Positions 13,518 to 19,981 of a stretch of 64,000 bases of DNA are shown here, one piece after another. The DNA comes from Blepharisma japonicum. Lineage: Eukaryota; Ciliophora; Heterotrichea; Heterotrichida; Blepharismidae. Numbering within the stretch: the stretch's first letter is position 1; every line of letters starts with the position of its first letter. A program made the translations under genes and the position numbers. The notes beneath the pieces were generated by a model. That model saw only the letters and a program-made list of their open reading frames with translations. It was not told the DNA's origin and ran no database searches. The DNA lies in contig CATKHK010000016.1 in assembly GCA_949751835.1 (NCBI GenBank), forward strand, positions 310,001-374,000. Direction: 5' to 3'.

Positions 13518-14793
13518 TTAAAGAGTCCACATTGGAATATGCAGATGGACTGCTCTAGCAGCCCAATAAGTCAAATTCCTTGACAATTCACTTGCTTTTT
13601 CTAATAATTCTTGAGCTTCTTTTTCCTTTTTTTGCTTCTTCAAAACTGAGGCATAAACTTCATTTACAAAAATCTCATTATAATCCCCTCTCTATGTTAT
13701 TATTACCCCGCTCACCAGCCCAAGAGCTTTGGTTAAAACTTTTTCTGCCTCATTGTATTCTTTTTGTAATTTTAAGAAAACTCCTGTTAGTGCTAAAGAT
13801 CTCCCAGCATTTTGCTTATCGATTTCTTCATAAAATGCTAAAGCACACTTAAGCCATTTTATGGCTTCCTTCAGGCTAATTTTCAAATACCTCTAAGTTT
13901 GCGCTTTGAAGATGGACTTCTGAGATATTTGTAAGGGAAATTCCACAAATAGATGATTTTAAACCAGGCTTATTGCTTGGGTCGACTTTGTAAATATCAG
14001 GCAGCCCTTCGAAATATTGAATGGCTCTTTGAAAACTTGTTACTGAATCTGTAAATTCCAATGCTGCAGCTCTATATTCAGACTCTTGATAGGTCTCTCC
14101 TTCTTTAATAGTGATAGATTCGGGTTTTTCAAATGATAAAAGATGCCACCATTGAGCACAGCCTAAATTGTGATAGAGTTCAGGCTGCTGTGGGTTTGCT
14201 GCTATAAGAGAAGATAAAAGCTTTTTAGATTCCCATATGTTTTCCCCTTTAAGTAGATAAGCTATCGCCAGCACATTTTTGACGAATTCCTCATTTATAA
14301 GACTAGACTTTTCTTCTAATAGTTTCTTAGCTAAATCTATACCCTTATCAATATTTGTATCTAAATACTGCATAAGTAGAGTTTCGTAGGAGCAAGAAAG
14401 CTGCTTTGGATATAAGCTTTCCCTTTCTTTGAAATTTTTTACTATCTCTTCTAGTAGCCTTTCACACATACTTTTCTTATTTTCGATCCGAAATATAAAA
14501 GCTAATCTTTTAAGGAGAATATTATAAGGTGGCTCACCATATAGCCCTCTTTCTTCAGCAATGCTCAAGCATTGAATGAGTTTTTGCTCGACAATTGGAA
14601 ATTTTCCTTCTTCTATGCTTTCTAATGCCTCCAAATACTCGTCAATGTTTTGAACCTCTTTAATTCCTATAGGATTTTCAAACTGTGGAGCAATTCCTGC
14701 GAAAAATCTTCTTGCAAGCCTGAGCATATTTAATATTTTATTGTGCATGATTTTTAAGTTAACTTTGTGATAGGCATGGACATCATAAATCAT
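13518..14793 (-). CDS. TPR-repeat protein, possibly mitochondrial
   Basis: A tetratricopeptide-repeat protein of about 412 aa; such proteins are scaffolds for protein contacts. Near the N-terminus, MLRLARRFFAGIAPQF looks like a mitochondrial presequence, so an internal Met may be the true start. TPR-like helices fill the rest (YHNLGCAQWW, EAIKWLKCALAFYEEID, YNEAEKVLTKALGLV). A consensus 15-nt intron lies at 13692-13706 (GTAATAATAACATAG). A second site at 13876-13890 (GTATTTGAAAATTAG) fits the intron pattern, but removing it leaves a one-base frame shift. A 22-nt GT-AG intron (13869-13890) would restore the frame, or one base may be extra. A TTC19-like role is possible but unproven. Confidence 0.75.
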
Positions 14794-15160
14794 TCTCCTC
14801 CTTAGGCTTGAGCTTTTGCTTCTTAAATTCAGAATATTAAATGTAATTATTATGTCTCTATTGAATTTTTAACCTTAGAGAGTTTTAAGAGATTAAATAA
14901 AAATTTTGAAAACTTATTCATTTGCTTAAATTTTGCATTTACTTGTATGAATTAAATGCTAATATTTTACAATGTTAGAATTTTATAAAAATTACCCTCT
15001 AAGTTGCTTGCATAATAAAATATTAAAAATCTTATCTATTGCTAAGATCTCTTTTAGAATTTCAAATAGAATTTGTACATCAATACAAATATATATAAAT
15101 CCTATATAAATTAAATCCCATAAATAAAATTAATCAAAAAAACAAAAAATTTAAGTTTTC
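14794..15160. other. Upstream region of the telomerase-RNA candidate
   Basis: This 367-bp AT-rich stretch lies between the divergent TPR gene and the candidate RNA gene. It holds TATA-like boxes near the RNA start and no reading frame of note. Confidence 0.5.
15092..15109 (+). promoter_or_regulatory. TATA-like boxes upstream of the RNA gene
   Basis: Two TATATAAA-like boxes (near 15092-15100 and 15103-15109) lie 50-70 bp before the first stem of the candidate telomerase RNA. Ciliate telomerase RNA genes are known to use external RNA polymerase III promoters with a TATA element. In DNA this AT-rich the match alone is weak. Confidence 0.35.
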
Positions 15161-15357
15161 GCGGGAATTAAAGATGGGTTGGCAGCGCATCTCTCCGGTT
15201 TCGGCCGCATTCACCCTAACACCAGTAACCTTTGTAAGGTTCCTCACTCAGTTCCTCCAAAGGAGCTGAGAGCGCAGCCAGATGATATCCTGCAGTTGTG
15301 GAGCACATGCTCAGGCTCTGCCGATCACAGCTTCTACAGGCTATCTAAACCCTTTTT
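15161..15357 (+). ncRNA. Candidate telomerase RNA (TER)
   Basis: A GC-rich, structured island in AT-rich DNA. Positions 15212-15223 read CACCCTAACACC, exactly 1.5 copies of the 8-nt heterotrich telomere repeat (CCCTAACA), which is the usual template length ratio in ciliate TERs. The element fits the ciliate TER plan. Stem I (15179-15188 with 15272-15281, 9 pairs including one G-U, plus one A-A mismatch) encloses the template. A small hairpin precedes it. Downstream are a hairpin AACCTT/AAGGTT and a second hairpin whose CAAAGG can pair back to CCTTTG as a pseudoknot. A 3' stem-loop (GAGC-ACAT-GCTC inside GCAG/CTGC, with outer CCTG/CAGG) corresponds to stem IV. The bases before the template (CATTCA) match those in the Tetrahymena RNA. 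A T5 run at 15353-15357 is a pol III terminator. The 5' end is approximate. There is no protein-coding signal. Confidence 0.85.
15353..15357 (+). terminator. RNA polymerase III T-run terminator
   Basis: Five T residues follow immediately after the 3' stem-loop of the candidate telomerase RNA, as expected for pol III termination. Confidence 0.6.
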
Positions 15358-15949
15358 ATATCAATATAAAGTAAATTGCTTATTTGAATTGCTTTAGTTT
15401 GAAGCTTTTACATTTTCTTATTTCTGAAATCTACTAATTAACGCTAATGGATACTTTTATTTCTCTTATTTGCTGTCTGAAAATCTTAAAATTCGTTAAT
15501 TATTATGAGTTTTATATAGGATATAAATATGAAATACATATAAGATTTTAAGTATTTTTCATATGTCTTATTTACATTATCTTATTTTTTGATGATCAAA
15601 ATAAATAGCCCATCATCTAAAACCTTATATATGTGAACAATTTTACTAATTATATTTAGTTTCTGATTATTTATGAGAAAATAATTTAAAATTTTTAAAA
15701 TTAAAGGCAATAACCTTTACTTAAATTTTTAGACTTAAAGTTCTCATTATATAGCTCTTCTAAAATCTAAAGGAGGTATTTGCTCATTAACAGTCAAAAA
15801 ATATTAAAATTGATTTTTAACCACTGTTTTATTCTTTATAATGTCTAAATAAAATGCCATAATTAATTCTACCAATTTTATGTGAATAATTTCAGAAAGC
15901 CCTTCGTTGTGCTAATCTTGATGACAACTGGGGAAACAATTATAATAAA
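15358..15949. other. Intergenic region
   Basis: 592 bp of AT-rich sequence between the candidate telomerase RNA and the cathepsin L-like gene. I see no open frame, repeat or RNA-like island. Confidence 0.5.
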
Positions 15950-16999
15950 ATGGAAGGTTACTTTGCAGTAGAATCCAAATCCAAGAAGAGGTTCTTGGCA
16001 GTCCTTGGCCTACTGGCCATCGTCGGAGTTGTGGCAACCGTTGCAGTTGCATCAAGCTCAACCCAAACTCCAGCCATTGCTCAACTCCAGATCGAGGAGC
16101 AAGAGTTCGCTGATTTCATTGCCCAATACAACAAGGTATACACCAGTGAAGAAGAATACGCCTATAGGTTCAAGATTTTCAGAGACAACTCTGCTTACAT
16201 CCGTGTCTTCAACAGCCAAGAAAACACCTTTTACCTTGGAGTCAACAAGTTCTCAGACTTAACCTTCGCTGAATTCAAGATGATTTACACCCCTAGGAAA
16301 TTCCAACCAATTACCGATGCTGAAGTTGCTGAATTCGATGTCTCAGCTGTCCCAACTCAAGTTGACTGGTCCCAAAAAGGAGCTGTTACCCCAATTAAAA
16401 ATCAAGGACAATGCGGAAGCTGTTGGTCATTCTCAACTACTGGATCTACTGAAGGTGCATGGTTCTTGGCCGGCCACACCTTAACTTCTCTTTCAGAGCA
16501 ACAACTTATGGATTGCTCATATTCTTATGGAAATGAAGCTTGCAATGGAGGAGATATGACAGCTGCAATGAAATACATCATTGCTAACGGAGGGATTACA
16601 ACTGAAGCCAACTATCCTTACACTGCTAAGGATGGCCTTTGCAACAAGACTAAGGCTAAGGAAGTTGCAGCCACTCTTTCAAGCTACAAGGCAGTCCAAG
16701 CAGACAACACTGATCAACTCTACGCTGCAGTTGCTCAGCAACCAGTCTCAGTTGCTGTTGAAGCTGACCAATCTGCTTGGCAAAACTATAAGGGAGGAAT
16801 TGTGTCCAAAGACTGTGGAACTGCTTTAGACCATGGCGTCTTAGTTGTTGGATACAACCAGGTTAATACCCCTCCATACTGGAAAGTTAAGAACTCTTGG
16901 GGAGCTGACTGGGGTGAGGCTGGATACATCAGAATTGCAGTCGTTGCAGGAAAAGGTGTTTGCGGTATCCAGATGCAACCAGTATACCCAATAGTTTAA
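15950..16999 (+). CDS. Cathepsin L-like cysteine protease (C1A)
   Basis: A 349-aa papain-family preproenzyme. A hydrophobic signal anchor lies at about residues 15-35. The I29 inhibitory propeptide follows (FADFIAQYNKVYTSEEEYAYRFKIF...NKFSDLT), with ERFNIN-like spacing. The mature enzyme starts near VPTQVDWSQKGAVTPIKNQG. All catalytic residues are present: Gln and Cys in NQGQCGSCWSF, His in LDHGVLVVGY and Asn in VKNSWGADWG. It probably acts in food vacuoles or lysosomes. Codons are richer in C-ending choices than in neighbouring genes, which suggests high expression. It is only distantly related to the cathepsin B-like array 14 kb away. No introns. Confidence 0.96.
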   Translation: MEGYFAVESKSKKRFLAVLGLLAIVGVVATVAVASSSTQTPAIAQLQIEEQEFADFIAQYNKVYTSEEEYAYRFKIFRDNSAYIRVFNSQENTFYLGVNKFSDLTFAEFKMIYTPRKFQPITDAEVAEFDVSAVPTQVDWSQKGAVTPIKNQGQCGSCWSFSTTGSTEGAWFLAGHTLTSLSEQQLMDCSYSYGNEACNGGDMTAAMKYIIANGGITTEANYPYTAKDGLCNKTKAKEVAATLSSYKAVQADNTDQLYAAVAQQPVSVAVEADQSAWQNYKGGIVSKDCGTALDHGVLVVGYNQVNTPPYWKVKNSWGADWGEAGYIRIAVVAGKGVCGIQMQPVYPIV

Positions 17000-17530: not shown

Positions 17531-19981
17531 ATGGCACAGCAAGGTGATCATAGAGCTCGTTTACCTCATTTGCAAAGGCCTCTCTATCAAGAAGCTGAGC
17601 CAATCTCTTCACGGCCTGATATCTCTCAACAAAGCCAGCTCCCTAACACAATGGCCGAACGAAGGATCCAAGCAGAGCAGCCAAAGGAAGTAAAAGTTCA
17701 TACAGAAACACTTCCAAGACCTTTGGAAAGATATGACGATTTTTTAGGTCAATTCACTGCTATGGGACAGCTTCCACCTCCTATTTTAGAAAATATTATT
17801 GCAAAAGAACAAGCTGTCACCTCCCCACGTTTTCTCCGTTTTACATGCACTCAATGTGCAATAGATGAAAGCACACAAAAGTCAACAGGTCTGCCACTTG
17901 CTGCAGTTTGGCACCCACTTGCTGATATCTGCCCAGGAGAGGACACAATCCCAATTCTTAATAAAATCCCCTTCCGATGCAATCGATGTTTGGCATTTGT
18001 CAGTCCTCATTTTCGATTTGTGGAAGGAGGAAGAAAATGCATATGCAATATCTGCGGGCTTGTTCAAGATACACCAGATGAGTATTTTAATGATAGAAAT
18101 AACAAGCCTGAGCTTTGGGCTGGGACTTATGAATTCATTGCTCCAGGAGATTACTCAAATCGGCCTCCAATGGCTCCACTATTTTTCTTTTGCATTGATA
18201 TCTCATCGAATTCTATATCTTTAGGCCTCCCTCAGCAGATCTTGACATCAATAAAAGGAGTGCTTGATTATATCTCTTTTCCTGAAAAATGCAGTATTGG
18301 AGTGATGACGTTTGATACTTCTATGCAGTTCTATAAGATTGGCTCTACTGGAGAAGTCTCAGAAATCTTGATAACCGATGTTGATGACCCTTTTATCCCT
18401 GAAAGTGTGGCTGGGCTTACTTATAATGTGGCTGAACAGCGAGAACAGCTGGATGGGCTATTAGACAGGCTGCTTGCTTGGGATTTTACACAACCTCCTA
18501 AAGTAAATTTATCAGCTGCTGCAATAGCTGACGGGATGAAAAACTATTTATTAAAAGGAAGAGGAGGAAGAGTCCTTATCTTCACTTCTCAGCTTGGCAC
18601 TGTTGGAAAAGGAAAATTGACTAATAGAGTTGACCCTAAACTTTTTAATACAGATAAAGAAAAAACAATGTACGCTCCTCTTGAGAGTTATGTAACTTTA
18701 GCCCAAGAGTGCACGTCTGAAGATATTTGTATTGATATTTTCCTATGTTCAGGACAGTATGCTGACGCTCCTTCATTAGCTGCGCTTTGTTCTCAAACTG
18801 GAGGTGATTTGCATTATTATCCCAATTTCAATGTAGGATTTGACGGAGAGCGCATGTATTATCAAATTTTCCGAACTTTGACAAGGACACAAGGCTTCCA
18901 AGCAGTTATGAGGGCAAGATGCAGCAATGGTATCGCAATTGATCAATATATTGGAAAATTCAAAAGAAAAGGACCTGTCGAAATGGAGCTAGCCTGTATC
19001 GATTCTGATAAAACAATAGTTATCATGCTTAAGCATGACTCAAAATTACAAGAAGACATTGATTTGCATGTCCAATGTGCAATGCTTTATACAAGCCAAT
19101 ATGGGCAAAGGCTTATAAGAATTTTCAATGGAGTCATAAAAAGCACAAAAACGATTCCTAATATATTTAAAGGGGGAGATACTGATGCGATAGCAAACGT
19201 TATTGCCAGACAAAGCGCTTATTCGATTTATGAAGAAGCGATAGGAACTGTTAGAGAAAAATGGCATGCAAGTATGATAACGATGCTGACGATGCATAGA
19301 ATGACTGTTGGAGATGGAGAAATGAACATGATTTTGGTACCTGAGAGCTTAAAAATGGTCCCTCTTTATAGTAACACAGCTATGAAACTTCCAGCTTTTG
19401 CATTAAGTGGGGTACCGATTGACGCAAGGCTTTTTTCAGTGCACGCACTATTAGGTATGAATATCCGTCAAACAAGGATGCATTTTTATCCGTCCATTTA
19501 TAGTTTGCATGACATTTCAGATCAGCCTCAGCAGCCAGGAACTCTAAATAATGCTGAGCTCCTTATCCTTCCTAATTTAGTTCCATGCTCTTTGCAATAT
19601 ATTCAATCCAATGGAGTCTATTTATTGTTTAATGGCGAAATTATGCTACTTTTTATAGGAAGAAATGCAGATCAAGAATTTTTACAAAATGTTTTTGGCG
19701 TCTCTCAGTTTGACGAGTTAAGTGAAAACCCTGAATTGTGGGCTCTAAATGACTATGGAAATGATGAGTCAGCAAAAGTGCTAGCTATAATAGATGAGGT
19801 CAGGAAAAGAAGTCCATCAGCTTATCCATCTTTGCATTGACTCTTTGAAGGGAAAGGGGATGATTTCATTTTAAGAAGGTTCATGGTGGAAGATTCGACA
19901 TCTGGAGAAATGAGTTATAGCGATTATTTATTAAGAATCCACAAAATAGTACTGAATAAAATTGCTGAAAGAAGAGGATAA
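17531..19981 (+). CDS. COPII coat subunit Sec24
   Basis: An 816-aa Sec24, the cargo-binding subunit of the COPII coat at ER exit sites. After a Gln/Pro-rich, disordered N-terminus comes a zinc finger (FRCNRC...CICNICG, about 150-180). The Sec23/24 trunk follows (PLFFFCIDISSNSISLGL and FTSQLGTVGKGKL), then beta-sandwich, helical and gelsolin domains. The frame runs through a UGA (Trp, codon 770, in PSLHWLFEGKGDDF) to TAA at 19979, adding 46 residues that complete the C-terminus. No introns. Confidence 0.95.

Follow-up and report, generated by a model that had tools for sequence, protein, structure and literature searches.

A strong candidate for a telomerase RNA gene in Blepharisma or a closely related heterotrich ciliate

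The stretch of DNA analyzed here (“the window”, 64,000 nucleotides, corresponding to C16:310001-374000 within an assembly of 224 contigs and 45.2 Mb) harbors, between AT-rich flanks, a GC-rich island that had already caught the eye in a preliminary description of the sequence, and that lies between a minus-strand ORF with no Pfam match (13876-14793) and a plus-strand gene for a papain-family protease (15950-16999). No ORF that overlaps the island exceeds 98 codons, and a search of the genome found no second copy of the locus. The island seems to encode an RNA of some 177-182 nt, proposed here at 15176-15357 on the plus strand (as are all of its elements given below) on the basis of its promoter spacing, terminal helix, fold and terminator, with a 5′ end that is good to within a few nucleotides. 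The preliminary description had the gene span 15161-15357; its 3′ end, placed at a run of five thymines, stands, and its 5′ end has been moved, because the distance from the promoter and a helix of GGGUU with AACCC (15176-15180/15348-15352) both point to a start near 15176, with the end at the T5, so that the RNA probably begins there and not at 15161.

About 60 nt ahead of the predicted RNA lies TCCCATAA (15116-15123), which looks like the upstream sequence element of a type 3 (snRNA-type) Pol III promoter and is followed, exactly 34 nt after its first base, by the TATA-like element TTTAAG (15150-15155), while the T5 Pol III terminator noted in the preliminary description is present at 15353-15357. 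The very same arrangement, TCCCATAA-26-TTTAAG, is seen at the U6 and SRP RNA genes of this genome, and the consensus TCCCWTAA is found at -60 to -64 of U6, SRP RNA, RNase P RNA and the candidate: relative to the model start, TCCCATAA or TCCCTTAA is located at -61 (U6), -64 (SRP) and -63 (RNase P), and the hexamer 34 nt after the first base of the element is TTTAAG at the former two and TTTAGA, with one mismatch, at RNase P. The RNase MRP gene (L109, C132:35600-35801), for which no TCCCWTAA/TTTARG pair was found, may have another promoter or a 5′ end farther upstream; among these four reference genes, three have the upstream element and two the exact pair. The upstream element alone means little, since TCCCWTAA is hardly more frequent genome-wide than its reversed control (3480 vs. 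3385 occurrences). For TCCCWTAA and TTTARG at the exact spacing, around 4 chance pairs would be expected genome-wide if TTTARG were as frequent as in the window and around 15 if it were as frequent as in the flanking intergenic DNA, and the chance of meeting such a pair at a given locus, with a placement freedom of 20 nt, amounts to approximately 3e-6 (arithmetic from these counts). The pair occurs once in the window, at the candidate, and, in some 140 kb of scanned sequence made up of the window and loci of the same genome (overlaps included), its only other occurrences are those at U6 and SRP. The combination of the upstream element with CCCTAAC at 75-104 nt is not enriched genome-wide (3 places vs. 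5 for the control), and the other two places where CCCATAAA is combined with CCCTAAC (L016 and L018) were rejected, the telomeric match being, by reading, at most 8 nt long at both. Judging by these motifs, the candidate has a type 3 Pol III-like promoter, from which we infer its use by Pol III.

Inside the predicted RNA, the 12-mer CACCCTAACACC (15212-15223), readable as CACC-CTAA-CACC, is the complement of over one unit of the telomere repeat of its own genome, whose contig ends carry TGTTAGGG arrays. The bases flanking it are T and A, both of which break the repeat, so the putative template is exactly 12 nt, or 1.5 repeats of 8 nt, just as the preliminary description had it; its assignment as a template draws upon its openness in the predicted fold and the register of telomere starts (both detailed below). 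Taken by itself, the 12-mer is weak evidence, its frequency being close to that expected by chance: CACCCTAACACC isolated by such flanking breaks is found at three places of the 45.2 Mb genome, and the reversed control at two. Its weight comes from the promoter, terminator and fold that accompany it. The other two isolated copies (L010 and L011), as read by eye, lie in apparent protein-coding sequence, one of which looks like a protein disulfide isomerase gene, and internal copies in which the repeat is extended by one base also occur among the matches listed. A second CCCTAACAC at 17641-17649 of the window falls within a Sec23/Sec24-like gene (17531-19981) and looks like chance.

The 181 nt RNA of 15176-15356 has a predicted minimum free energy of -62.7 kcal/mol (z -3.2), which only 1 of 500 shuffled sequences reached, and a longer, 197 nt version (15160-15356) folds more weakly (z -1.95, with 7 of 200 shuffles as low). 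In the predicted fold, the two ends of the molecule are joined by a terminal helix, P1, in which GGGUU (15176-15180) pairs with AACCC (15348-15352) with probabilities of 0.99, 0.99, 0.99, 0.86 and 0.47. Next to it comes the stem that had been said to enclose the template, stem I, formed by GGC-A-GCGC (15181-15188) and GCGC-A-GCC (15272-15279) with pair probabilities of 0.99-1.0. Just 5′ of the template is a hairpin of CGGU with GCCG (15196-15207, pair probabilities 0.74-0.82), a candidate template boundary element, and 3′ of it are predicted a hairpin AACCUU-UGU-AAGGUU (15227-15241) and a 10 bp hairpin CUCAGUUCCU-CCAA-AGGAGCUGAG (15247-15270). The 3′ stem-loop of the preliminary description is likewise predicted, at 15284-15345 (pair probabilities 0.87-1.0), in the place where stem IV would be sought; it is predicted to branch into a three-way junction (15301-15304/15309-15312 and 15314-15316/15320-15322), which is to be taken as a hint only, given that shuffles of the 3′ domain reached its energy in 51 of 1000 cases and had a branched fold in 72 of 1000.

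The template itself is predicted to sit in an open loop that stem I closes, with a mean unpaired probability of 0.92 vs. 0.40 for the whole RNA, and 5 of the 170 twelve-base windows (the template included) are as open. When the template was kept and its flanks were shuffled, none of 300 sequences were as stable, 18 were as open at the template, 121 had as many enclosing pairs and 8 matched both the openness and the enclosing pairs. A second set of energy parameters left the minimum free energy fold unchanged and gave a template openness of 0.77. The predicted openness of the template is, by itself, unexceptional.

A pseudoknot had also been proposed at the outset, and its segments do exist, with CCTTTG at 15229-15234 and CAAAGG, inside the 10 bp hairpin, at 15258-15263. 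Their pairing, which might give an H-type pseudoknot of 6 + 5 bp (11 bp), is no better than chance, as an equally good one arose in 69 of 300 shuffled versions of the 48 nt core, and a long-range helix of 6 bp or more in 174 of the 300; both segments are, moreover, used by the two stable nested hairpins of the predicted fold. The pseudoknot was, at this chance level, dropped as support for a telomerase RNA.

No Rfam family reaches its threshold at the candidate: a scan up to an E-value of 10 gave four matches, all far below threshold, of which plasmodium_snoR11 (E 8.9) overlaps the 5′ part. A better match to another RNA family, such as RNase P or SRP RNA, would have counted against the telomerase RNA reading in the preliminary description, and none was found; covariance models of U6 (92.8 bits), SRP RNA (126.9), RNase P (78.6) and RNase MRP (100.5) have one match each in this genome, all of them away from the candidate, where none of the four match. 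The model of the known ciliate telomerase RNAs (RF00025, Telomerase-cil, cut-off 52 bits) has no match within 15000-15500 at E-values up to 10; its best match in the genome, scored for 48 of 4240 first-look candidates, lies elsewhere and attains 22.7 bits (E 5.33), and sub-threshold matches of this kind also occur in 6 of 14 control genomes. The RNA is therefore not assigned to RF00025, and the miss is taken here as distance from the members of that model. Local alignment with a presumed Tetrahymena telomerase RNA sequence gave no significant similarity, with 400 of 500 shuffles scoring as high. As a mere remark, made after the fact, CAUUC directly precedes the template in both the candidate and that presumed Tetrahymena sequence. 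Among viral contigs, 82 stretches contain TTCACCCTAACACC; nhmmer found no match in them, and the 91 short blastn rows against these stretches, 85 of which are over the 12-mer, include none longer than 25 bases.

The telomeres of this assembly are TGTTAGGG arrays at contig ends, and CCCTAACA is given as the C-strand telomere unit of Blepharisma stoltei in a passage of PMC9942806. This agreement, along with the use of TGA as a sense codon in the TERT gene described below, is the ground on which the DNA is attributed to a Blepharisma-like heterotrich. To be called telomeric, an end was required to have two units within its last 60 bases, and 170 of the 448 contig ends were examined (ten chosen for their telomeric matches, the left ends of C1-C42 minus two already included, and both ends of C70-C129); L123, the left end of C4, has a single unit and was left out, and C69 was re-read by eye past one shortened unit. 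That shortened repeat unit, at the left end of C69 (L119), is set in an otherwise regular telomere array. The 20 telomeric ends so obtained start in TTAGGGTG (9), TAGGGTG (6), AGGG (2), GGGTG (1), GGTG (1) and GTG (1), i.e., 15 of the 20 in TTAGGG or TAGGG (probability 1.4e-5 under a random phase with AT-rich flanks) and 5 elsewhere in the repeat. The idea of a register was formed after the first eight clean junctions had been seen, and, among the ends fetched later, 6 of 10 start in TTAGGG or TAGGG (probability 0.03). The telomere starts, hence, have a preferred phase. A template of CACC-CUAA-CACC with a 4 nt overlap and a DNA end placed just past its 3′ CACC would yield TTAGGGTG as the first added bases, and a default template position of this sort is known from work on Tetrahymena telomerase. 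The preferred phase fits this permutation, which RNA is used not being proven thereby.

A gene for the protein partner is present in the same genome as the candidate: an uninterrupted frame on C125 (L021 2639-5419; P0001), in which TGA is a sense codon, encodes a TERT of 926 aa with the RNA-binding (PF12009) and reverse transcriptase (PF00078) domains above the Pfam cut-off and the TEN domain (PF11474) below it. Its best relative of solved structure is the TERT of 6d6v (E 1.6e-46), which we take to be the Tetrahymena enzyme, and 12 relatives in the protein collection (908-940 aa, 40-58% identity) all keep D559, D718 and D719, taken here to be the catalytic aspartates. The La-domain proteins gave four matches, with one (L108) below the La cut-off; two of them (L105 on C5 and L106 on C19) share a C-terminal DUF3223 and have no Pfam RRM match, and L107 combines its La-domain match with WD40-like ones. 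None of the four could be assigned as a homologue of p65, the La protein of the telomerase holoenzyme.

Given the sequence itself, the promoter match, the predicted fold, the TERT gene and the preferred telomere register, we are highly confident that the candidate is a telomerase RNA gene, that of Blepharisma or a closely related heterotrich ciliate, with bounds near 15176 and 15357, as the preliminary description had supposed before the promoter spacing and the telomere-start register were added to its arguments. Pol III, driven by TCCCATAA and TTTAAG, would transcribe approximately 180 nt, starting near 15176 and ending at the T5 of 15353-15357, and stem I would close the core, leaving 5′-CACCCUAACACC-3′ single-stranded within it. 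TERT, which presumably binds this RNA, would pair the GGTG of a DNA 3′ end with the 3′ CACC of the template and copy CUAA and the 5′ CACC into TTAGGGTG, until copying stops at the putative boundary hairpin 5′ of the template; slipping back by the 4 nt CACC overlap would then set up the next 8 nt repeat. At fresh macronuclear breaks devoid of telomeric sequence, the default position would give TTAGGG as the first added bases.

How else might such a locus be explained? It might be the gene for some other structured Pol III RNA (7SK-like, snoRNA-like or of an unknown family) in which a telomeric 12-mer has arisen by chance; its promoter and terminator are, indeed, generic for small Pol III genes, neither the fold nor the pseudoknot is specific for a telomerase RNA, and RF00025 has no match there. 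Set against this are the position of the 12-mer in the open loop of the predicted fold, the lack of any Rfam family at threshold and the fact that, with only 3 isolated copies in 45.2 Mb, the 12-mer is unlikely to have landed by chance within the few kilobases occupied by such genes, which together make another Pol III RNA improbable. Still less credible is a chance island, either untranscribed or the decayed copy of a small-RNA gene, as, even with the 12-mer alone being near the chance level, the exact promoter spacing, the T5 and the stable fold are there on the same strand and in the proper order, and no second copy that could have been the source of decay was found.

Could the true telomerase RNA, with a template of another permutation or length, be encoded elsewhere, the candidate being something else? 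The search for isolated 12-mers did cover the permutation CACCCTAACACC only; the looser scan described above, however, gave three places, two of which were the rejected ones, and the telomere starts fit the CACCCTAACACC permutation, which leaves this explanation with a negligible probability in our estimation.

Heterotrichs diverged close to the root of the ciliate tree. A heterotrich telomerase RNA, possibly that of Stentor, has likely been predicted by Fajkus et al. (2021), and telomerase RNAs for TGTTAGGG telomeres may already be described in that paper. The statement in the preliminary description that a heterotrich telomerase RNA is not known to have been described might, likewise, not hold, given a passage of PMC9498494 according to which searches for telomerase RNA led to the TGTTAGGG type of telomere among green algae, ciliates and stramenopiles. 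Among the papers searched, none joins telomerase RNA with either Blepharisma or Stentor, and a text search for TGTTAGGG gave no title on a telomere topic among the matches listed. The candidate is probably a telomerase RNA of a known kind that has not been described previously. In the relevant passages of PMC12133305, telomerase RNA is portrayed as so divergent that its detection is highly challenging, and a search strategy is given that combines the upstream element with a template within 200 nt; in a part of PMC11441545, the telomeres and telomerase of Loxodes, from the sister group, are stated to have eluded detection by its authors. The candidate could serve as a starting model for the telomerase RNA in Stentor, Condylostoma and Loxodes, and a Blepharisma telomerase RNA would be a handle on telomere addition to non-telomeric ends, which, as reported in a passage of PMC9942806, has 46,705 potential alternative sites in Blepharisma stoltei, most of them seen in one read.

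Compared with the general plan of the ciliate telomerase RNAs (Tetrahymena type, RF00025; taken in part also from reviews), the candidate is alike in its size near 180 nt, its Pol III-type promoter and T-run end, its 1.5-repeat template in a stem-closed loop with a hairpin 5′ of it, its hairpins 3′ of the template and its 3′ stem-loop. It is unlike them in leaving RF00025 unmatched, in having a template for 8 nt TTAGGGTG repeats, an extra terminal helix joining its ends and a 3′ stem-loop that is predicted to branch, and in its want of a convincing pseudoknot. Vertebrate and fungal telomerase RNAs have the CR4/5 three-way junction, with which the candidate shares the predicted branching of its 3′ stem into two short hairpins, the longer one first, this being a single-sequence prediction of a kind seen, as mentioned, in shuffles as well. 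The upstream element and TATA-like box at a fixed spacing are, by description, like those of the telomerase RNA genes of plants and other Diaphoretickes (type 3 Pol III), and a closing stem P1 is described for the plant telomerase RNA in a passage of PMC12133305. It is conceivable, if rather doubtful, that the heterotrich telomerase RNA is a mosaic, in which a ciliate core and Pol III gene are combined with a plant-like P1 and a CR4/5-like junction in place of the simple stem IV of Tetrahymena. Were that so, heterotrichs would have kept an ancestral architecture that was later trimmed in other ciliates, and the default template position would set the start of addition at the great many alternative macronuclear ends of Blepharisma.
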